A stretch of DNA of 64,000 nt from Polynucleobacter kasalickyi (GTDB lineage Bacteria > Pseudomonadota > Gammaproteobacteria > Burkholderiales > Burkholderiaceae), in NCBI RefSeq assembly GCF_900176405.1, contig NZ_FWXJ01000009.1:62001-126000 (forward strand). Reading direction: 5' to 3'. Below the pieces are notes generated by a model. It saw only the letters and a program-made list of their open reading frames with translations. It made no database searches and was not told the origin of the DNA. Below, one piece after another: positions 2,254 through 49,882 of the stretch. The position numbers and the translations under genes are program-made. How positions within the stretch are numbered: position 1 is the stretch's first letter; the number at the start of each line of letters is the position of its first letter.

Positions 2254-3030
2254 TTATTGTGCAGCATAACCCCCGTCAACCAGTAAATCAGAGCCCGTGA
2301 CAAAAGCAGAGGCATCACTCGCTAAGTACAAAGCGGCGAGGGCGATTTCTTCTGGTTGCGCAAGTCTACCCAATAAATGCATTGGACCTAGTTCTTTGCG
2401 AGCGTTTTCCATCGTACCAAAACGCAGCGTCATTCTTTCCGTTTCAACCGCACCCGGTGAAATGGTATTGGTCCGGATGCCTTGTGCTGCATGATCAATC
2501 GCCATCGCCCGTGCTAAGTTAATCAAAGCTGATTTAATCGCGCAATAAACGGCACGATTCGCCGTTCCAACGCGCCCAAGTTGCGAGGCAATATGAATAA
2601 TTGAGCCTGATTTACCAGCAGCCATATGCGGAATGACTGCTTTACTCATCAAGAATGCACCGGTTAAGTTAACGGAAATGGCTTTATTCCAATCTTCTAA
2701 GGAGTAATCTGCTACGCTACCACTCGGATCTTTAGCTGCGGCGCCATTCAATAACACATGAATCCCGTCAAAAGCTTGCATTACTTGCAAGACGGCTTGT
2801 TGCGTCGATGGCTCACTACTCACGTCAGCATGTATACCAATGGCAGTACCACCAGCTTGATTAATTTCTTCAGCCGTTCTGATGGCATTTTCAGTTAGCA
2901 TATCTAAGCAGGCAACTTTAGCACCTGCTTGGGCAAAGGCTATAGAAATTGCTCTACCAATACCTTGGCCCGCACCTGTCACAACCGCTACTTTGCCGGT
3001 TAAGGCATATTTATTGAGGATATTTTCCAT
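2254..3030 (-). CDS. short-chain dehydrogenase/reductase
   Basis: A 258-residue classical SDR. The cofactor motif TGAGQGIG is at residues 19-26; the structural NNAG motif is replaced by NGAA; the catalytic pair is in YCAIK, followed by SPGAVETERM and the C-terminal VDGGYA typical of FabG-like enzymes. The Asp at the end of beta-2 (CLDM) suggests NAD preference. It would oxidise or reduce an alcohol/ketone intermediate. It lies 29 bases after livF and 32 before the amidase, in the same operon, so it probably acts on the imported compound or its amide hydrolysis product. Exact substrate cannot be read from sequence. Confidence 0.88.
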   Translation of the reverse strand: MENILNKYALTGKVAVVTGAGQGIGRAISIAFAQAGAKVACLDMLTENAIRTAEEINQAGGTAIGIHADVSSEPSTQQAVLQVMQAFDGIHVLLNGAAAKDPSGSVADYSLEDWNKAISVNLTGAFLMSKAVIPHMAAGKSGSIIHIASQLGRVGTANRAVYCAIKSALINLARAMAIDHAAQGIRTNTISPGAVETERMTLRFGTMENARKELGPMHLLGRLAQPEEIALAALYLASDASAFVTGSDLLVDGGYAAQ

Positions 3031-3059
3031 GCTTGTCTCCGTATTTATGAGGTACCTAA

Positions 3060-3779
3060 TTAAGAGGTACCCAAATAAGCTTCTTTAATTTTTGGATCAT
3101 TGATTAAATCTTTACTATTACCACTTGTCAGAATCTTGCCGGTTTGTAAAACGTAAGCACGTGAAGCAGTGCCGAGCGCGTAGTGCGCATTTTGTTCAAC
3201 CAATAAAACGCTCGTATTGTTGGCATTGATTTCTCTGATCGTTCTAAAGATATCTTGGACAATAATCGGCGCGAGACCCAAGGACGGTTCATCTAAGCAA
3301 AGTAAGCGTGGTTCTGACATCAGCGCACGGCAAATGACGAGCATCTGTTGTTCACCACCCGATAAAGTACCCGCATTCTGTTTCGCTCTGACTTTCAACT
3401 TAGGAAACATCGTGACCATTTTTTCAATCAAGGAATTCATTTTTGGGCGGTTATTACGGTGGCAGTAGCCGCCCATTTCCAAGTTTTCCATGACCGTTAA
3501 GAAGGGGAACACATGACGACCCTCAGGTACTAGAGCAATCCCTAGCTTATTTCTTTCATAGGATGGCATTCTTGTAATATCAATCCCATCAAATAAGATC
3601 TTGCCTTTACGTGGGTACATCGCACCAGCGACCGCGCGCATCGTGGTGCTTTTGCCAGCACCATTGGAACCAATTAAGGTCACGATTTCATTGTGACCTA
3701 CGGTAAAGTTGATGTTTTGACAGGCAGCCACTTCACCATAGGCGATTTCAAGGTCAATAGCCTCTAAGAGTGCGCTCAT
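3060..3779 (-). CDS. livF: branched-chain amino-acid-type ABC transporter ATPase, LivF-like
   Basis: A 239-residue ABC ATPase of the HAAT (branched-chain amino acid) class. Walker A is GSNGAGKST, the signature is LSGGEQQML, and Walker B with the catalytic Glu is LLCLDEPSLGL; the H-loop is near the end (LLVEQNAHYAL, with the LivF-typical Gln-Asn). It overlaps the LivG stop by 4 bases (ATGA type). It pairs with LivG to power LivHM. The substrate could be a branched-chain amino acid, but the neighbouring amidase, SDR and Bug genes suggest an amide or carboxylate instead. Confidence 0.93.
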   Translation of the reverse strand: MSALLEAIDLEIAYGEVAACQNINFTVGHNEIVTLIGSNGAGKSTTMRAVAGAMYPRKGKILFDGIDITRMPSYERNKLGIALVPEGRHVFPFLTVMENLEMGGYCHRNNRPKMNSLIEKMVTMFPKLKVRAKQNAGTLSGGEQQMLVICRALMSEPRLLCLDEPSLGLAPIIVQDIFRTIREINANNTSVLLVEQNAHYALGTASRAYVLQTGKILTSGNSKDLINDPKIKEAYLGTS

Positions 3780-4552: not shown

Positions 4553-4574
4553 GTCAATATTCTGTATGTATAAA

Positions 4575-5558
4575 TCAATGTGATTTGAAAAGTTTATTCT
4601 TGATTGTTTGGAAGGCCTGCAGAATTCCACCAGGCATAAACAGAACAACGAGAGTTAAAGAAATGCCATAAACGAGAAGACGTGCATCACCTAAGCCTCT
4701 TAATAATTCAGGCAAGATGGTGAGTACGATAGCGCCGATAATAGGGCCAAACATCGTACCCATTCCCCCGACGATCACCATGGCTAAATAGGTAAAGGAT
4801 TCAACGACGGCAAAGGCATCTGGCACTAAGGTACCAACAAAACTAGGATAAAAAGAACCCGCTAAGCCAGCAATAAAGGCGCCGACACCGAAAGCAAATA
4901 TTTTCCAAAGTTTGGCATTGATCCCGAGTGACGCTGCCGATACTTCATCTTCCCGAATCGCGCGTAAGGTATCGCCGATGGGCGATCTTAAGAGGTTTCC
5001 TAAAATAATATAAGTAACCATCGTGACAGTTGCGACCAAATAAAAAAGGTTCACACTATTATTAAATTTAATTTCAGTGCCAAACAGATGGATTGGCGTT
5101 GGCGCTGGAATGCCGTAAATACCCAAAGGTCCTGAGGTCATTGAGTCCCAATTTAATAAAATTTGGTGCAAAATAATCGCAAAAGCCATGGAGGCAATCG
5201 CCAGGTAATGGCCTTTGAGGCGAGTAGCAAAGAATGCCAAGAAAATACCGACAGCACCTGCTAAAAAAGAACCAGAAAGGGCGGCGAACCAAAAGGTAAA
5301 CCCAGCTTTTTTGATGAGTAGCGTCGTGGCATAAGCACCCACTCCAAAGAATGCCGAGTGACCTAAATTCAACTGCCCGGTATAACCTAAAATGAGATTG
5401 AGTGACATCGCCAGCATGATGTTCATGGCAATCACCACCAAGATTCCTTTCCAATAGGCGGAACCACTCAGGACAATGGGGAGTAACCAAATGACCCCTG
5501 CAACGAGCAAGTACTGTACCCAAGTTGGGATTTTTTTCAACAATCGTAACTCAGACAT
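4575..5558 (-). CDS. livM: branched-chain amino-acid-type ABC permease, LivM-like
   Basis: Inner-membrane permease of about 327 residues with roughly nine hydrophobic segments. The LivM signatures are visible: SLNLILGYTGQLNLGHSAFFGVGAY near residues 44-70 and the EAA-like loop RSPIGDTLRAIREDEVSAASLGIN. The start at 5558 (MSELRLL) leaves an 8-base overlap with livH; an ATG seven codons upstream is also in frame but would enlarge the overlap to 29 bases. It forms the translocation pore with LivH. Confidence 0.9.
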   Translation of the reverse strand: MSELRLLKKIPTWVQYLLVAGVIWLLPIVLSGSAYWKGILVVIAMNIMLAMSLNLILGYTGQLNLGHSAFFGVGAYATTLLIKKAGFTFWFAALSGSFLAGAVGIFLAFFATRLKGHYLAIASMAFAIILHQILLNWDSMTSGPLGIYGIPAPTPIHLFGTEIKFNNSVNLFYLVATVTMVTYIILGNLLRSPIGDTLRAIREDEVSAASLGINAKLWKIFAFGVGAFIAGLAGSFYPSFVGTLVPDAFAVVESFTYLAMVIVGGMGTMFGPIIGAIVLTILPELLRGLGDARLLVYGISLTLVVLFMPGGILQAFQTIKNKLFKSH

Positions 5559-7871: not shown

Positions 7872-8861
7872 ATGATAGTACTGATAACAGGTGGCACAGG
7901 TTTTGTAGGTCTTAACCTCGCCCAACAATTGTGCAAAAAAGGCTTCAAGCCAGTGCTAATGGCACTCGCTCCAATGTCGTTCAAGTTGCAACAACAGCTG
8001 ATGCAAGCAAACATTTCTTTTGATTTTTTTCAAGGAAGCGTAAGCAATTCGGCAGATTTAGACCGAGTTTGTACGCTCTATAAAATCGACAAAATTGTGC
8101 ATGCCGCCGCGATTACGGCGGATGGTAATCGTGAAATTGCCCATACGAGAGAAATTTTAGAAACGAACTTAATGGGTTCGGTAGAAATTTTTGAATGCGC
8201 GGTTCGGCATCACATTAAACAGGTCGTTTACTTGAGTTCGGGTTCCATTTTTGGGCACCTAGGGACCCATGACCCGATGATTGATGAATTAACGAGTCCT
8301 GTACTACCAGAAACCATTTACGGCATTAGTAAACTAGCTGCAGAACGGACTGCTCTGCGTTATCGTCAAAACCGACAGCTCAATGTGACGGTGGTTCGCC
8401 TTGGTCTTGCTTATGGCCCATGGGAGTACGATACCGGGCATCGCGATACCTTGAGCCTGCCTTACAAAACCTACCTCAAGGCCAAACTTGGTGAGCATCT
8501 TGTTATCTCAAAAGTACACGGGGATGATTATATTTATGCCACAGACATCGCGCAGGGATTGTCCCTGATCTTAGAGGCGGGCAAATCACCGCAAGGTCTT
8601 TATCATTTATCCGCTGGTATGCAGTGGTCAATTGCTACTTGGTTAGAAAACCTTCAGCAATTATTTCCGAAATTCACCTATGAGATGACGGATGATCCCC
8701 ATCTCTGTGCATTTAAAAACAGTAGTCCTTTGCCTCGTTCACCCATGAGTATTCAAAGGATTCAAAACGATTTTCATTTCGAGCCCCACTTTGATCAAGC
8801 GAGCGCTTTTAGTGATTTTATTTCTCAGCCTTCTATTCTTCATTCATTTACCAACGATTAA
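7872..8861 (+). CDS. NAD-dependent epimerase/dehydratase (extended SDR)
   Basis: A 329-residue extended SDR. The N-terminal Rossmann motif is TGGTGFVG (residues 6-13); the active site has Ser in YLSSGSIFG and the YGISK catalytic Tyr/Lys pair, then RLGLAYGP. Such enzymes epimerise or dehydrate nucleotide sugars or reduce other carbonyls. It starts a plus-strand operon and its stop is 2 bases before the CoA-transferase gene, so here it more likely serves catabolism of the same compound than envelope sugar synthesis. Substrate unknown. Confidence 0.87.
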   Translation: MIVLITGGTGFVGLNLAQQLCKKGFKPVLMALAPMSFKLQQQLMQANISFDFFQGSVSNSADLDRVCTLYKIDKIVHAAAITADGNREIAHTREILETNLMGSVEIFECAVRHHIKQVVYLSSGSIFGHLGTHDPMIDELTSPVLPETIYGISKLAAERTALRYRQNRQLNVTVVRLGLAYGPWEYDTGHRDTLSLPYKTYLKAKLGEHLVISKVHGDDYIYATDIAQGLSLILEAGKSPQGLYHLSAGMQWSIATWLENLQQLFPKFTYEMTDDPHLCAFKNSSPLPRSPMSIQRIQNDFHFEPHFDQASAFSDFISQPSILHSFTND

Positions 8862-8863
8862 CT

Positions 8864-10039
8864 ATGACAGCACTTTCAAAATTTAAAGTTCTTGATTTAA
8901 CTAGAGCTAGAGCAGGACCCACTTGTGTAAAACAATTTGCTGATTTTGGCGCGGATGTGATCAAAATTGAAATGTCCGAAGGCATGGGCGATGCTAGCCA
9001 GTTCAGTGGCGCTCGCCATGGCCCAGATATGCAAAATTTACATCGGAATAAAAAATCATTAACCCTTGATCTGAAACAGAAGGAAGGCTTAGAAATTTTT
9101 TATGCACTCGTCAAAACGGCTGACATTGTCGTCGAAAATTTTCGACCTGATGTCAAAGTGCGACTAGGCATTGATTATGAAAAGCTAAAAGCCTTGAATA
9201 AGCGGATTATTTTGGTTTCTATTTCTGGCTTTGGCCAAGATGGACCTTATGTGAAGCGGCCGATGTTTGATCAAATCTCACAGGGGATGAGTGGCATCAT
9301 GTCGGTCACAGGCGACCCGAAAGGTGGACCGATGCGAGCTGGCGTGGCGATTACAGATATTACGGCTGGCTATATTGCTGCTTGCGGTGCGATGACGGCA
9401 TTACTTGAGCGGGAAGTTTCTGGTGAGGGGCAGTGGGTACAGAGTTCACTGATTCAAGCTGGGATTGCCATGATGGACTTCCAAGCTGCTAGATATTTAA
9501 TGGCAGGCGAAATTCCCAAACAAGTGGGGAATGACCACCCGACGAGTATGCCAACTTCTTGCTATCAAAGTAGCGATGGTTATATTAACGTGGCGGCGAC
9601 TGGTGAACCGATGTGGGTGGCATTATGTGAGGCCATGGGTATCGCCGAGCTCGCGACTGATGAGCGCTTTAAGTCTGAAGCGATGCGGGTTGCACACCGT
9701 GATGAATTAAATCAAATTCTGATTCCGATTTTAAAATCACAACCCAAAGCGTATTGGGTGGAGTTGCTCAATCAGGCAGGTGTTCCAACCGGCCCCATTT
9801 ATGACATGTCAGAGGTCTTTAGTGATCCTCAGGTGATTTCGCAAAACGCCTCGGTGGAAGTCGTGCACCCTAAAGTCGGTAAGATTCGGCTCGTCAACCA
9901 AGCCGTTAAGCTTTCTAGAACGCCGGCGAAAATCACTCATTCTGCGCCCGAACTCGGTGAACACTCTGAAGAGATCTTGCGTGAATTATGTTATTCTGAA
10001 AATCAAATTCAAGAATTTAAAACTAAAAAAATAATTTAA
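8864..10039 (+). CDS. family III CoA-transferase (CaiB/BaiF)
   Basis: A 391-residue family III CoA-transferase, which moves CoA between acyl donors and acceptors through an aspartyl-CoA thioester. N-terminal landmarks: LDLTRARAGPTCVKQFADFGADVIKIE and LHRNKKSLTLDLK; the likely catalytic Asp is in the AGVAITDITAGYIA segment. The R-A-R-AGP opening differs slightly from the common L-A-GP form. It lies between the epimerase and an alpha/beta hydrolase with short gaps and would activate an organic acid to its CoA ester for degradation. Confidence 0.92.
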   Translation: MTALSKFKVLDLTRARAGPTCVKQFADFGADVIKIEMSEGMGDASQFSGARHGPDMQNLHRNKKSLTLDLKQKEGLEIFYALVKTADIVVENFRPDVKVRLGIDYEKLKALNKRIILVSISGFGQDGPYVKRPMFDQISQGMSGIMSVTGDPKGGPMRAGVAITDITAGYIAACGAMTALLEREVSGEGQWVQSSLIQAGIAMMDFQAARYLMAGEIPKQVGNDHPTSMPTSCYQSSDGYINVAATGEPMWVALCEAMGIAELATDERFKSEAMRVAHRDELNQILIPILKSQPKAYWVELLNQAGVPTGPIYDMSEVFSDPQVISQNASVEVVHPKVGKIRLVNQAVKLSRTPAKITHSAPELGEHSEEILRELCYSENQIQEFKTKKII

Positions 10040-45921: not shown

Positions 45922-47169
45922 TTAAGCTTTTGCTGCGGTTAAATCGACCTGTACTTTGCAACCCGGCACCAAGAACTTGCCAACTTCTAAAGTAGTTCTA
46001 GGAGGAGGCGATGGGAAATACTCTTTCCAAATTTGATCAAAGTAATAGAAGTCATTCAGGTCTGCTAAAAAGACTTGTGCTTTGACGGTGTCTGCCAAAT
46101 CAAAGCCACCTTCCCTATATAACTGTTGCAAACGATTCAGCACAAAGCGGGTCTGTTTTTGAATTTCAGAGCCGTAGTAAGGAAAAGCTGCATCTTGATG
46201 TGCGATCTGAATGATTGGTGTTTTATGGTCAGAAGCAATTTGTCCGCTGGCGTACAGGGTGTCATCCACCATCACGCCATTACAAAAGGATGGTTGCTCG
46301 CTAGTCGCATCTAGCGTAATTTCTCTTTTGGGCGTATTCGGTAATACCCCCCATAAATCGATTTCGATCTTGCAACCTGGCACTAATAATTTTTGTACTT
46401 CAACGATGGTTCTGGGTACTGGATGTTGAAAGTACTCTTGCCATACTTGGTCAAAATAATAAAAATCATTGAGATCCGTTAAAAAGATTTGAGCTTTGAC
46501 GACATCTCGATAGTCGCAACCGGCTGCATCAAAGACGCTTCGAATATTATTTAGAATATAACGGGTTTGTTTTTGGATATCAGAGCCGTAGTAAGGAAAC
46601 GCTGGGTCTTGCTTCGCTTCAGGACCAACCCCTGTTTGATAATCGGAGGCGATTTGACCTGCCGCATAGAGCACATTTTCGATCAGAATACCCTGAGAGT
46701 AGTGGGCCATGGGCGTCGGTGTTTTTTTACCGATAATGACTTGACGGGGCACTTTGGCTTGTACACCCCAGAGATCAATTTCGACTTTACAGCCTGGGAC
46801 GAGTAAGCCGCCGACTTCCACAGTGGTTCTAGGAGGAGGGGATGGGAAAAACTCTTTCCATACTTGATCAAAATAATAGAAGTCATTTAAATCCTTTAAA
46901 AATACTTGCGACTTCACTACATCACGAAAGCTACTGCCAGCACTCTCAAAAACCGACTGAAGATTTTGTAGAATGTACCTTGCTTGCTTTTGAATATTAG
47001 AGCCATAGTAGGGAAAGGCTGGATCTTGTTTGGCCTCAGGCGCGACACCCGTTTGGTAGTCTGAAGCGATTTGTCCTGCTGCATAAATGGTATTGCGATG
47101 CAAGACCCCTTGGCAATAGTGTGCCATTGGCGTCGGTGTTTTTGCACCTGTAAGAATTTGATTATTCAA
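45922..47169 (-). CDS. three RidA (YjgF/YER057c/UK114) domains fused in one chain
   Basis: About 415 residues holding three consecutive RidA domains: residues 1-142, 143-281 and 282-415. Each repeats the AAGQIASDYQTG-type strand (ASGQIASDHKTP in the third), DPAFPYYGS, the DLNDFYYFDQVW helix and PPRTTVEVGGLLVPGCKVEID. The catalytic Arg (PPRTT, VPRTI, PPRTT) is kept in all three. RidA hydrolyses reactive enamines/imines. The TTG at 47169 is chosen because GAGGAG lies 7 bases upstream and the first repeat begins there; an ATG 13 codons earlier is in frame but lies in the upstream dyad. Normal RidA is about 130 residues and trimeric, so this may be a single-chain trimer. Repeats are also alike at DNA level. 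Confidence 0.92.
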   Translation of the reverse strand: MNNQILTGAKTPTPMAHYCQGVLHRNTIYAAGQIASDYQTGVAPEAKQDPAFPYYGSNIQKQARYILQNLQSVFESAGSSFRDVVKSQVFLKDLNDFYYFDQVWKEFFPSPPPRTTVEVGGLLVPGCKVEIDLWGVQAKVPRQVIIGKKTPTPMAHYSQGILIENVLYAAGQIASDYQTGVGPEAKQDPAFPYYGSDIQKQTRYILNNIRSVFDAAGCDYRDVVKAQIFLTDLNDFYYFDQVWQEYFQHPVPRTIVEVQKLLVPGCKIEIDLWGVLPNTPKREITLDATSEQPSFCNGVMVDDTLYASGQIASDHKTPIIQIAHQDAAFPYYGSEIQKQTRFVLNRLQQLYREGGFDLADTVKAQVFLADLNDFYYFDQIWKEYFPSPPPRTTLEVGKFLVPGCKVQVDLTAAKA

Positions 47170-47202: not shown

Positions 47203-47248
47203 ATTCATTGAACGGTCATTGTTTCTAAAGTTTTATCGTTCAATGAAT
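47203..47248 (-). promoter_or_regulatory. 12-base inverted repeat upstream of the three-RidA gene
   Basis: ATTCATTGAACG (47203-47214) and CGTTCAATGAAT (47237-47248) are perfect arms 22 bases apart, 34 bases upstream of the TTG start. Size and position suit an operator for a dimeric regulator; no regulator gene is adjacent. Confidence 0.5.
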
Positions 47249-47327: not shown

Positions 47328-47618
47328 TTAGAGGCATGCCTCGCCTAACAACGGATGTTCTTTGATGAATTGACGCAAAGATATATCAATCCGAGTTTGC
47401 CAACCATCTCCAGTTGCTTTAAAAGCTGCAAGCACATCAGGCGAAAGTCGAATCGTCGTTGCTATTTTCTTAGGTGCTTTTTGAGGCCCACGTACACCTA
47501 ACTTTTGTTGTAAGGACTTTGGAAGCACTTCGTTAGCTGGCTTAAACATCGTTAAATCTTCAGCAAGAAGCTCTCGTACTTCACCAACTTCATTTGTAAG
47601 GGGTAATATTTTTTTCAT
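47328..47618 (-). CDS. brnA: BrnA-type antitoxin
   Basis: A 96-residue antitoxin of the BrnA family. The C-terminal half carries the ribbon-helix-helix DNA-binding fold (KKIATTIRLSPDVLAAFKATGDGWQTRIDISLRQFI shown by IATTIRLSPDVLAAFK and WQTRIDISLRQ). It neutralises BrnT and represses the operon. The start overlaps the brnT end by 29 bases. Unlike most systems the toxin gene comes first, as is normal for brnTA. Confidence 0.88.
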   Translation of the reverse strand: MKKILPLTNEVGEVRELLAEDLTMFKPANEVLPKSLQQKLGVRGPQKAPKKIATTIRLSPDVLAAFKATGDGWQTRIDISLRQFIKEHPLLGEACL

Positions 47619-47871
47619 AAACCTTTTGCTCTCTTTTATTGGCTTTACGGAAACTGATGACTCTAATTCCTAAATCAGTTTCTGAAAAACACAACACGTG
47701 TAATCGATCATCGAGATAACCCACAGCAATAAATCTTTGTTCAGGATAGCGAAAACGTATGTCCTCTTTTAATAGAGCTGAATCCCATTGGAAGTTAGTA
47801 ACTTTATCAAAGGGTAAATTACGCTCAAGAACATTTTTTGCATTTTTTTCCAAATCGTAAGTAATGTTCAT
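47590..47871 (-). CDS. brnT: BrnT-type ribonuclease toxin
   Basis: A 93-residue toxin of the BrnT family, a RelE-like ribonuclease that stops translation when BrnA is lost. Landmarks: TYDLEKNAKNVLERNLPFDKV, RFIAVGYLDDRLHVLCFSE, and RVISFRKANKREQKVYE with the catalytic basic residues. It appears intact. No Shine-Dalgarno sequence precedes the ATG; instead a -10-like TACAAT ends 7 bases upstream, so the message may be leaderless. Confidence 0.88.
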   Translation of the reverse strand: MNITYDLEKNAKNVLERNLPFDKVTNFQWDSALLKEDIRFRYPEQRFIAVGYLDDRLHVLCFSETDLGIRVISFRKANKREQKVYEKNITPYK

Positions 47872-48481: not shown

Positions 48482-48889
48482 ATGATGAGAATGCAAACAG
48501 TCGCTACAAAGATTCATCCAGCTATATTTAACTCTATTCCACAGTCTGATGATTTAGGGTTATTTAAAAAGTCGGGTAAGCCTGACTATGACAAAGTTAA
48601 AGATATTTTGGGTTACACAAAGCAGGACATATCCATAGCCTCTGGCATACCTATTGGGTCAATTCGTTTTGACGATAAAGTTCCAGCAGAGTTAACAGAA
48701 CGAGTGCTTGAATGGGCAACAGTAATTGCGCTTGTCCATAGCTTTTTCAATGATCAAACAAAAACAATGCTTTGGTTTAAAGTGCCAAATCCATTACTTG
48801 GAGATGTAGCACCCCGAGATATGATCAAAGTTGGTCGATACAAGAAACTACTTAAATTTATCCAAACAGCTTTGGAAGAAGGACGTTAA
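48482..48889 (+). CDS. Xre/MbcA/ParS-type antitoxin
   Basis: A 135-residue antitoxin of the Xre-MbcA-ParS group (DUF2384). The C-terminal toxin-binding domain is clear: FKVPNPLLGDVAPRDMIKVGRYKKLLKFIQ (shown by NPLLGDVAPRDMIKVGR). The central part (DYDKVKDILGYTKQDISIASGI) is a small helix-turn-helix. Three in-frame ATGs lie at 48482, 48485 and 48491; AAGGA just upstream suits 48485-48491 better. Its stop is directly followed by the toxin start. Confidence 0.85.
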   Translation: MMRMQTVATKIHPAIFNSIPQSDDLGLFKKSGKPDYDKVKDILGYTKQDISIASGIPIGSIRFDDKVPAELTERVLEWATVIALVHSFFNDQTKTMLWFKVPNPLLGDVAPRDMIKVGRYKKLLKFIQTALEEGR

Positions 48890-49882
48890 TTGGCAGGACA
48901 GAAACCAATTATCTCGCCTAAAGTAAAGAGGGCTTCTAAAATTAAAAAACCACCCATCAAGGATATGGGAAAAGAGGTCGCTGACCTCCTTGAACAAGGC
49001 AGTTTAACTAACCTTCAAAAGGCCAAACAACTCAGCCAGGATTATCTTAAACATCAATGGGACTTTTATTCTGAATTAGCCTTTCAAAGAAATACAATTG
49101 CTGAAGAGTTGATTGACTCTATTTCTGAGAGTTGTATTGAAGACTATCAGTTTGAATCCTGGCAGCGTGCATTAACTTGGAAATACACAAATCACCCCTT
49201 ATGTACTATTGGTAGTTTGAAACAATACGGTGGACGATTCAATATTGGTGAAAACATCTCTCCAAGCAGCGCTCTCAAAACATTTTCGGCTTTTTATATC
49301 GCAGAGGATCAACCTACAGCAAGAGCAGAGGCATTTGGAAGTCCACGGGTAGGAAGTTCTTTGACTCCTGAAGAAATATCTTTAACAAATAAGCGCTCTT
49401 ATGCCTGCATAAGTATTTCAGGATCATTAGATAAAGTGTTTGATCTAACCAAAAAATCTTCGCTAACTAAATTTGTTCGTTTAATCTCGAAATTTAAGAT
49501 TCCAAAGCCTATTTACGAATCTGCAACACGCCTAAATCTTCCAACTCCTACCTTAATTAACTCTTCAACCTTGTTGATGGAGTCTTTATTAGCAAGCGAC
49601 TGGAGGAAAGAGCCTGCGCAGGCTGACATTCCTGCAAATGGTCAAATATTTGGTCAAATGGCACATAAGGCTGGTGTTGATGGAATCTTATTTAAGTCAT
49701 CCAAAACAAGAAAACTTTGCCTAGCAATATATCCGTCAAACTTCGCAAACGGGAATTCTTACATCCAGTTAGATGATGAGCCACCTGAAAAATGGATTGT
49801 GAAGAAGATTGACTCTGGCAACTTTAAATTATGCGAAAAAAATGCTGATGAGATTCAATTAAAAGGAACATTAAATCTATAG
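48890..49882 (+). CDS. RES-domain toxin
   Basis: A 330-residue protein with a RES domain (about residues 90-300), named after conserved Arg, Glu and Ser. Visible anchors: WKYTNHPLCTIGSLKQYGGRFNIG with the Arg, FYIAEDQPTARAEAFG with the Glu, and a Ser-rich segment near NSSTLLMES. RES toxins such as MbcT and Res destroy NAD+. The first 85 residues are an extra, basic N-terminal region not seen in small RES toxins (about 150-200 residues). TTG start immediately after the antitoxin stop, with AAGGA upstream. Confidence 0.85.
   Translation: MAGQKPIISPKVKRASKIKKPPIKDMGKEVADLLEQGSLTNLQKAKQLSQDYLKHQWDFYSELAFQRNTIAEELIDSISESCIEDYQFESWQRALTWKYTNHPLCTIGSLKQYGGRFNIGENISPSSALKTFSAFYIAEDQPTARAEAFGSPRVGSSLTPEEISLTNKRSYACISISGSLDKVFDLTKKSSLTKFVRLISKFKIPKPIYESATRLNLPTPTLINSSTLLMESLLASDWRKEPAQADIPANGQIFGQMAHKAGVDGILFKSSKTRKLCLAIYPSNFANGNSYIQLDDEPPEKWIVKKIDSGNFKLCEKNADEIQLKGTLNL

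Follow-up and report, generated by a model that had tools for sequence, protein, structure and literature searches.

The 64,000-nucleotide window analyzed here, a stretch of the genome of the freshwater bacterium Polynucleobacter kasalickyi (contig NZ_FWXJ01000009.1), carries a gene for a protein in which three domains of RidA, a small detoxifying enzyme, are joined, a 3x-RidA protein. We consider it likely that this chain forms a pseudo-threefold barrel with three interface pockets and RidA-type chemistry, and that its pockets have diverged in Polynucleobacter. The three domains would fold into one barrel that resembles the RidA homotrimer and has a pocket at every interface between domains, three in all; each pocket would take its Tyr17/Gly31/Glu120 side from one domain and its Arg105/residue 107 side from another. 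The predicted chemistry is most likely the hydrolysis of small carboxylate-bearing imines or enamines, with a substrate of the protein's own because Asn88 of RidA is Asp here. Ancestrally, the protein would have worked in a catabolic pathway supplied by an ATP-binding cassette (ABC) importer of the branched-chain-amino-acid type, encoded in the same operon; in Polynucleobacter, the gene would have become detached from the transporter and its three pockets would have diverged.

A single gene with three RidA domains

The gene is one uninterrupted frame of 415 codons at 45922 to 47169 (-), with a TTG start at 47169 and its stop codon at 45922 to 45924. GAGGAG lies 7 nucleotides upstream of the TTG, and Met occupies the equivalent position in 13 of 13 aligned orthologs; an in-frame ATG at 47208 would extend the protein by 13 residues. 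An earlier note on this DNA, made from its letters, had described three RidA domains in one chain with the catalytic Arg kept in each, and both statements were borne out. PF01042 occurs three times in a Pfam scan (E 2e-71), TIGR00004 matches in three stretches (224.5 bits against a cutoff of 106.25), and the equivalents of Arg105 are R114, R253 and R391. Every domain of all 14 proteins of alignment A1 has this Arg; A1 holds the window protein and 13 full-length copies, and one copy with an in-frame TAG (L049) was excluded from it. The joining of the three domains is not an assembly error, because these 13 copies, which come from other records, are likewise uninterrupted and align end to end. 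Elsewhere in the genome of the window organism, PF01042 is found at four places. Pfam and NCBIfam scans of the window protein at E 0.001 found no chorismatase family and no AtzD/barbiturase ring-opening amidase family.

Predicted fold

The AlphaFold2 model of ortholog L048, which is 70% identical to the window protein, had a predicted local distance difference test score (pLDDT) of 72.4 and a predicted template modeling score (pTM) of 0.77. Over residues 24 to 414, it matched the chorismatases 5ag3, 5a3k, and 4bps (Z 21.1 to 21.5, 277 to 281 residues, 3.3 to 3.4 Å) and, at Z 14.7 to 15.6, FBXO22; sequence identities to these structures were 10 to 13% (chorismatases, 11 to 13%). Chorismatase, AtzD, and FBXO22 are solved single-chain pseudo-trimers of YjgF type, and AtzD was not among the 50 structural matches listed for the L048 model. 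The FIST domain of FBXO22 is built of three repeats related by pseudo-threefold symmetry; its fold is shared by chorismatases and cyanuric acid hydrolases, which are described as possible descendants of trimeric YjgF monomers (accessible part of PMC11185555). The salt bridge of the AtRidA trimer, K136-E182 (PMC4960622, in excerpt), corresponds by our mapping to three pairs, K86/D132, K225/D271, and K363/D409, none of which varies among the 14 proteins of A1. We refer to these proteins, which align across all three domains, as kind A. The window protein is probably a single chain folding as one pseudo-threefold RidA-like trimer, as modeled for its ortholog.

Pocket residues have diverged in Polynucleobacter

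The two halves of a RidA pocket are contributed by different subunits (PMC1884159). Glu180 of AtRidA, which matches the pocket Glu, comes from the neighboring subunit (PMC4960622, in excerpt), and in Tv-PSP1, Cys18, beside Tyr17, lies near Cys101, beside the Arg, of another subunit (PMC9863245, accessible part). Because of these subunit contributions, each pocket of the fused chain would draw its Arg half from one domain and its Tyr/Glu half from another. In the four deeper full-length relatives, every domain has retained Tyr, Gly31, Arg, Thr107, and Glu. Equivalents of Tyr17 and Glu120 are present in domains 1 and 2 of the window protein and lost in its domain 3, as in domain 3 of all ten Polynucleobacter proteins, where Tyr17 has become Phe (nine copies) or Leu (one) and Glu120 has become Gln (ten). 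The Arg lip of domain 2 is altered in all ten as well. The earlier note's claim of three non-identical sites is supported by these two changes. This pocket asymmetry in Polynucleobacter is new here; the concept of a covalent trimer was already known.

The changes are distributed unevenly. As a reference we used 61 columns that do not vary among 14 domain copies taken from L047, L048, L050, L051, L053, and L067. Against it, a majority of the ten Polynucleobacter proteins have changed at 1 of these columns in domain 1, 8 in domain 2, and 16 in domain 3; the numbers changed in all ten are 1, 5, and 15. Six of the eight domain 2 changes fall in the Arg half and none in the Glu half, and 8 of the 16 domain 3 changes fall in the Tyr/Glu half, against one in the Arg half. 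For this split, Fisher's exact p is 0.0014, with halves defined post hoc and columns and rows that are not independent. All three domains are under purifying selection: pairwise ratios of nonsynonymous to synonymous substitution rates (dN/dS, ratio of means) were 0.05, 0.03, and 0.05 for domains 1, 2, and 3, rough values, as dS is greater than 1 and has no defined value in 5 of the 45 domain 2 pairs.

These values bear on an alternative, that domain 3 or the whole gene has been decaying in Polynucleobacter since the transporter operon was lost. The stem branch of domain 3 is long (0.73 to 0.76 in two trees, versus 0.16 for domain 1 and 0.25 for domain 2), its Tyr and Glu are lost, and the flanks lack the transporter genes, all of which would suit decay. 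We nevertheless regard decay as improbable, for the reading frame is unbroken in all ten full-length Polynucleobacter copies, dN/dS in domain 3 is about 0.05, Tyr and Glu are replaced throughout the ten, and Arg391 and PPPRTT are unchanged.

A sister triple suggests which faces pair

In the gammaproteobacterial family of genome G999, 9 of 36 genomes match profile A1. G999 itself has a partial kind A gene at a contig end; the other eight carry a different triple, which we call kind C (L076 to L084). Three domains were recognized in all eight distinct kind C proteins, and all eight show the same distribution of pocket residues. Domain 1 has Tyr, Gly31, and Glu and no Arg; domain 2 has the Arg, with Ala replacing Glu; in domain 3 the Arg is Ser, the Glu is Ala or Val, and the Tyr is Glu. 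Position 88 is acidic in domain 2 only. Since the Glu is confined to domain 1 and the Arg to domain 2, single domains or homotypic trimers of kind C cannot form a RidA pocket; judged by its residues, the Glu half of domain 1 can complete one pocket with the Arg half of domain 2. One genome, G1297, has two kind C genes side by side (L083).

Kind C also weighs on a reading in which like domains trimerize between chains (domain 1 with domain 1, and so on) and the fusion is merely a tether. RidA domains trimerize readily, all three Args are retained in the window protein, and its domain 1 has Arg together with Tyr and Glu, as such a reading would expect. We judge it very improbable, however, because no kind C domain has both Arg and Glu, domain 3 of Polynucleobacter could not build a full pocket, the linkers between domains in A1 are apparently short (about 5 residues), and the L048 model matches single-chain pseudo-threefold proteins over its whole chain.

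If kind C has kept one working pocket, the Glu face of domain n would pair with the Arg face of domain n + 1, and this is the order that we favor. Contacts between monomers of S. aureus YabJ, Lys122-Asn23 and Lys72-Glu118 (PMC6435465, accessible part), appear to fit it, in that strand parity would put the C-terminal strand of the Glu-giving domain near the start of the Arg-giving domain. Under this order, the domain 2/domain 3 pocket of Polynucleobacter would have the ancestral set, the domain 1/domain 2 pocket an altered Arg lip, and the domain 3/domain 1 pocket neither Tyr nor Glu. The reverse order, which would set the Glu face of domain n + 1 against the Arg face of domain n, is rather unlikely. 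It would leave two Polynucleobacter pockets unchanged and one, formed by the domain 2 Arg and domain 3 Glu faces, changed on both sides, so that the domain 2 changes (6 of 8 in the Arg half) and the domain 3 changes (8 of 16 in the Glu half) would land in one pocket, the halves again being those defined post hoc. It would also leave kind C with no complete pocket, whereas the favored order leaves exactly one, formed by the domain 1 Glu and the domain 2 Arg, which has in addition the Lys-Asp pair and the acid at position 88 of domain 2; the YabJ contacts, read through strand parity, likewise speak against the reverse order.

In a third triple, kind B (L011, L037, L055), the Arg is replaced in every domain tabulated. 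Two of the three kind B proteins have three recognized domains, and in L037 the first is barely recognized. The kind B genes adjoin genes that, from sequence likeness, we take to encode TctC/Bug-type receptors.

A transporter operon in the deeper relatives

In L047, L048, L050, and L051, the genes LivK-LivH-LivM-LivG-LivF lie directly upstream of the triple gene. Their products are 74 to 86% identical to those of L048, on whose proteins the families were assigned by Pfam. A gene for a GntR/FCD regulator is found further upstream in three of the four (Pfam for L048). In these four intact deeper copies, the triple gene is the last of an ABC operon of the branched-chain-amino-acid type, an association that is new here. 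At L067, the end of a kind A gene is followed by another LivK-like gene, 26% identical. These Liv genes were not found in the available flanks of nine Polynucleobacter loci (L038 to L046), and a search of the window genome for a LivK ortholog returned a best match of 30% identity, with no close LivK. Other neighbors include amidohydrolase, polysaccharide-deacetylase-like, and asparaginase-like genes downstream in L050, an amidohydrolase gene upstream in L051, and a D-2-hydroxyacid dehydrogenase gene directly downstream of the triple gene in L044 to L046 (Pfam for that of L044). From this context, the triple protein may act on imines or enamines as an imported nitrogen compound is broken down, and the transporter operon gives a first handle on the substrate.

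Observations that weigh against the proposal

Several observations count against a single-chain barrel with RidA-type pockets. The earlier note had expected a pseudo-trimer from covalent linkage, with structure prediction as a check. That expectation agrees with the whole-chain matches of the L048 model to pseudo-trimers and with the absence of a whole pocket from any kind C domain. It is not matched by the model of the window protein itself, which was weak (pLDDT 65.0, pTM 0.60), aligned with chorismatase 5ag3_B only at residues 1 to 258 (Z 11.8, VIA-align), and had only single-domain chains among the 50 Foldseek matches listed. The chains might also associate into larger assemblies. As to the pairing, the Polynucleobacter pattern taken alone is more economical under the reverse order, and Polynucleobacter and kind C argue in opposite directions. 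As to the operon, the 2.5 kb upstream of the interrupted deeper relative L049 held no match to these Liv genes.

The pocket residues themselves raise two further points. Replacement of the Tyr and Glu equivalents by Ala in S. enterica RidA had little effect (PMC4433059, in excerpt), so the changes in domain 3 need not abolish a site. Asn88 is one of seven residues described as fully conserved throughout the family and orients the Arg in TdcF (PMC1884159); it is also one of six footprint residues of the RidA subfamily (PMC6435465, accessible part). All three window domains have Asp at its place, and all 18 single-domain relatives compared have Asn. Among the full kind A domains tabulated, 21 of 24 have Asp, and the three with Asn are the second domains of L047, L050, and L051. 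With Asp at this position, the substrate may not be a RidA one, and even the unchanged pockets differ from those of RidA; this Asp slightly lowers our confidence in the proposal, which we still hold to be likely.

Origin of the triple and the rate of domain 3

A 76-row domain tree was built without three very long single domains (L001, L005, L025), 6 of the 10 Polynucleobacter proteins, and the duplicates L079 and L084. In it, 58 triple domains split from 18 single RidA domains (support 98/97). Kind A formed one clade (98/97), the first domain of kind C joined that of kind B (92/93), the third of kind C joined the third of kind B (98/88), and the second domains of C and B were not joined. In an earlier tree that retained the three very long singles, the first domain of kind B joined the single L005 (87/82) and the triples were not one group; the split of triples from singles is not firm, since it depends on which rows were left out of the 76-row tree. 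These groupings suggest that the triplication is probably old and common to kinds B and C. Kind A domains are alike among themselves, and a constraint joining A with the second domain of C was not rejected (approximately unbiased test, p 0.366, 76-row tree); kind A may have re-amplified a domain like the second domain of kind C. Domains of kinds A and C, and less clearly those of B, carry an insert, about 11 residues long, ahead of helix 1; it is absent from all 18 singles.

The earlier note was right that domains 1 and 2 of the window protein are closer to each other (73% identity) than either is to domain 3 (55% and 51%, respectively). The stepwise duplication that it read from this did not hold. 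In L050 and L051, domains 1 and 3 are closer (75 and 73%) than domains 1 and 2 (72 and 70%), and in Polynucleobacter the stem of domain 3 is the longest; we rejected stepwise duplication, the similarity of domains 1 and 2 reflecting fast evolution of domain 3.

A broader view, which we would put a little short of even, is that the triple Rids with the insert are one old lineage whose living members show, in succession, how a symmetric trimer became a single-chain enzyme with one active site or few. The steps would be three like pockets in operon-linked kind A, three unlike ones in Polynucleobacter, a single complete pocket in kind C (domain 1 Glu with domain 2 Arg), and no Arg in kind B. If true, this lineage would be a present-day model for the origin of chorismatase- and AtzD-like pseudo-trimers.

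Distribution of the triple

A scan of genome contigs for the window protein gave 17 loci, of which 14 span the whole protein and 3 are truncated by contig ends. Within Polynucleobacter, 12 of 186 genomes carry the triple (E 1e-40 or better), two of them only in part. The carrier genomes measure 2.5 to 3.2 Mb, and the 34 non-carriers among those listed measure 1.6 to 2.6 Mb. The proteins of L038 to L046 match those of nine Polynucleobacter carriers over the last 300 residues. In samples that overlap, triples were found in 2 of 399 genomes of the order (its own and G090, the latter with a different triple), 1 of 398 of the family, 2 of 369 of the class (its own and G999), and 1 of 398 of the phylum. 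The earlier note had called a triple fusion unusual, which fits its rarity in the sampled genomes; as a type of protein, it had already been published as 3x-RidA (PMC4433059). A search of viral contigs found no relatives of the window protein. Plasmid searches gave 753 and 17 matching records, and among the 20 and 15 listed, matches were of the length of one RidA domain except for H17 (672 bp, in two pieces).

Three loci showed further features. In L049, from a metagenome-assembled genome, the kind A gene at 2512 to 3759 has its in-frame TAG in domain 3 (codon 298), from a sequence error or in a pseudogene. At the extreme contig start of L053 (1 to 712), the last two domains are apparently identical over about 90 shared residues, either because of a recent conversion or as an edge effect of the assembly. 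L041 also carries a separate, single RidA-like gene (PF01042) at 8713 to 9162, close to the 3x-RidA gene.

Features of the locus and neighboring genes

The features of the gene are given in Table 1. Directly upstream, window positions 47328 to 47871 (-) hold a BrnA/BrnT toxin-antitoxin pair (PF14384, PF04365). Further on, at 48482 to 49882 (+), a 135-amino-acid (aa) gene without a Pfam match is followed by a RES-domain gene, perhaps an Xre/RES-type pair. A gene similar to the 135-aa gene is found in P. rarus L039 at 4561 to 4971 (-), with no RES-like neighbor seen in the list of open reading frames.

Table 1. Positions of the 3x-RidA gene, its domains, and selected pocket codons in the window
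Feature	Position	Strand	Remarks
3x-RidA gene	45922..47169	(-)	415 aa
RidA domain 1, residues 3-136	46762..47163	(-)	Tyr18, Gly32, Arg114, Thr116, Glu130 retained; Asp101 at Asn88 place
RidA domain 2, residues 142-275	46345..46746	(-)	Tyr157, Arg253, Glu269 retained; Asp at Asn88 place
RidA domain 2 Arg lip	within 46345..46746	(-)	altered: FQHPVPRTI vs FPSPPPRTT
RidA domain 3, residues 281-414	45928..46329	(-)	Arg391 retained; Asp at Asn88 place
Arg114 codon, domain 1 catalytic Arg	46828..46830	(-)	
Arg253 codon, domain 2 catalytic Arg	46411..46413	(-)	
Arg391 codon, domain 3 catalytic Arg	45997..45999	(-)	
Gln407 codon, at pocket Glu120 place, domain 3	45949..45951	(-)	
Phe295 codon, at pocket Tyr17 place, domain 3	46285..46287	(-)	

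Comparison with known systems

Linking the subunits of a symmetric enzyme lets each site change independently. In the proteins described here, change can be assigned to one branch and one face per domain while the RidA Arg is still held, and kind C supplies an argument, drawn from residues alone, for which faces pair. What becomes of duplicated active sites once they are fused can thereby be tested directly in one small protein.

The name 3x-RidA comes from Niehaus et al. (2015), who presumed such proteins to be covalently linked trimer units and gave EF_0115 of Enterococcus faecalis as an example (PMC4433059, accessible part); in our literature search, which was thin on subscription journals, the term was found only there, and a wider search for proteins with three RidA domains led to one other paper. 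The window protein has the three domains that define a 3x-RidA. In the accessible part of the same source, a word search did not find "transporter," no pocket asymmetry is named, and kinds B and C and the Liv operon do not appear.

Single-domain RidA proteins of the TIGR00004 type (TdcF, RidA, UK114, YabJ) share the domain with the window protein. Their Tyr17, Gly31, Arg105, and Glu120 are retained in its domains 1 and 2 and in the deeper relatives, and the Lys and acid of the trimer interface are shared. They differ in having one domain per chain, Asn at position 88, no insert of about 11 residues (18 compared), and sites that are identical by symmetry. The cyanuric acid hydrolase AtzD, of the Toblerone fold, is a single chain with threefold pseudo-symmetry, as predicted for the window protein, and has been proposed to descend from concatenated YjgF-type monomers (PMC3758960, accessible part). 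Its active site, however, lies in a central barrel and is of Ser-Lys type (same source), whereas the window protein matches only PF01042 in Pfam. Chorismatases of the FkbO/Hyg5 type and the FIST domain of FBXO22, the best whole-chain structural matches to the L048 model, are also single-chain and pseudo-threefold; the chorismatases differ in their chemistry and share only 11 to 13% identity with L048, and the FBXO22 FIST domain differs in having no obvious ligand pocket (PMC11185555, in excerpt).
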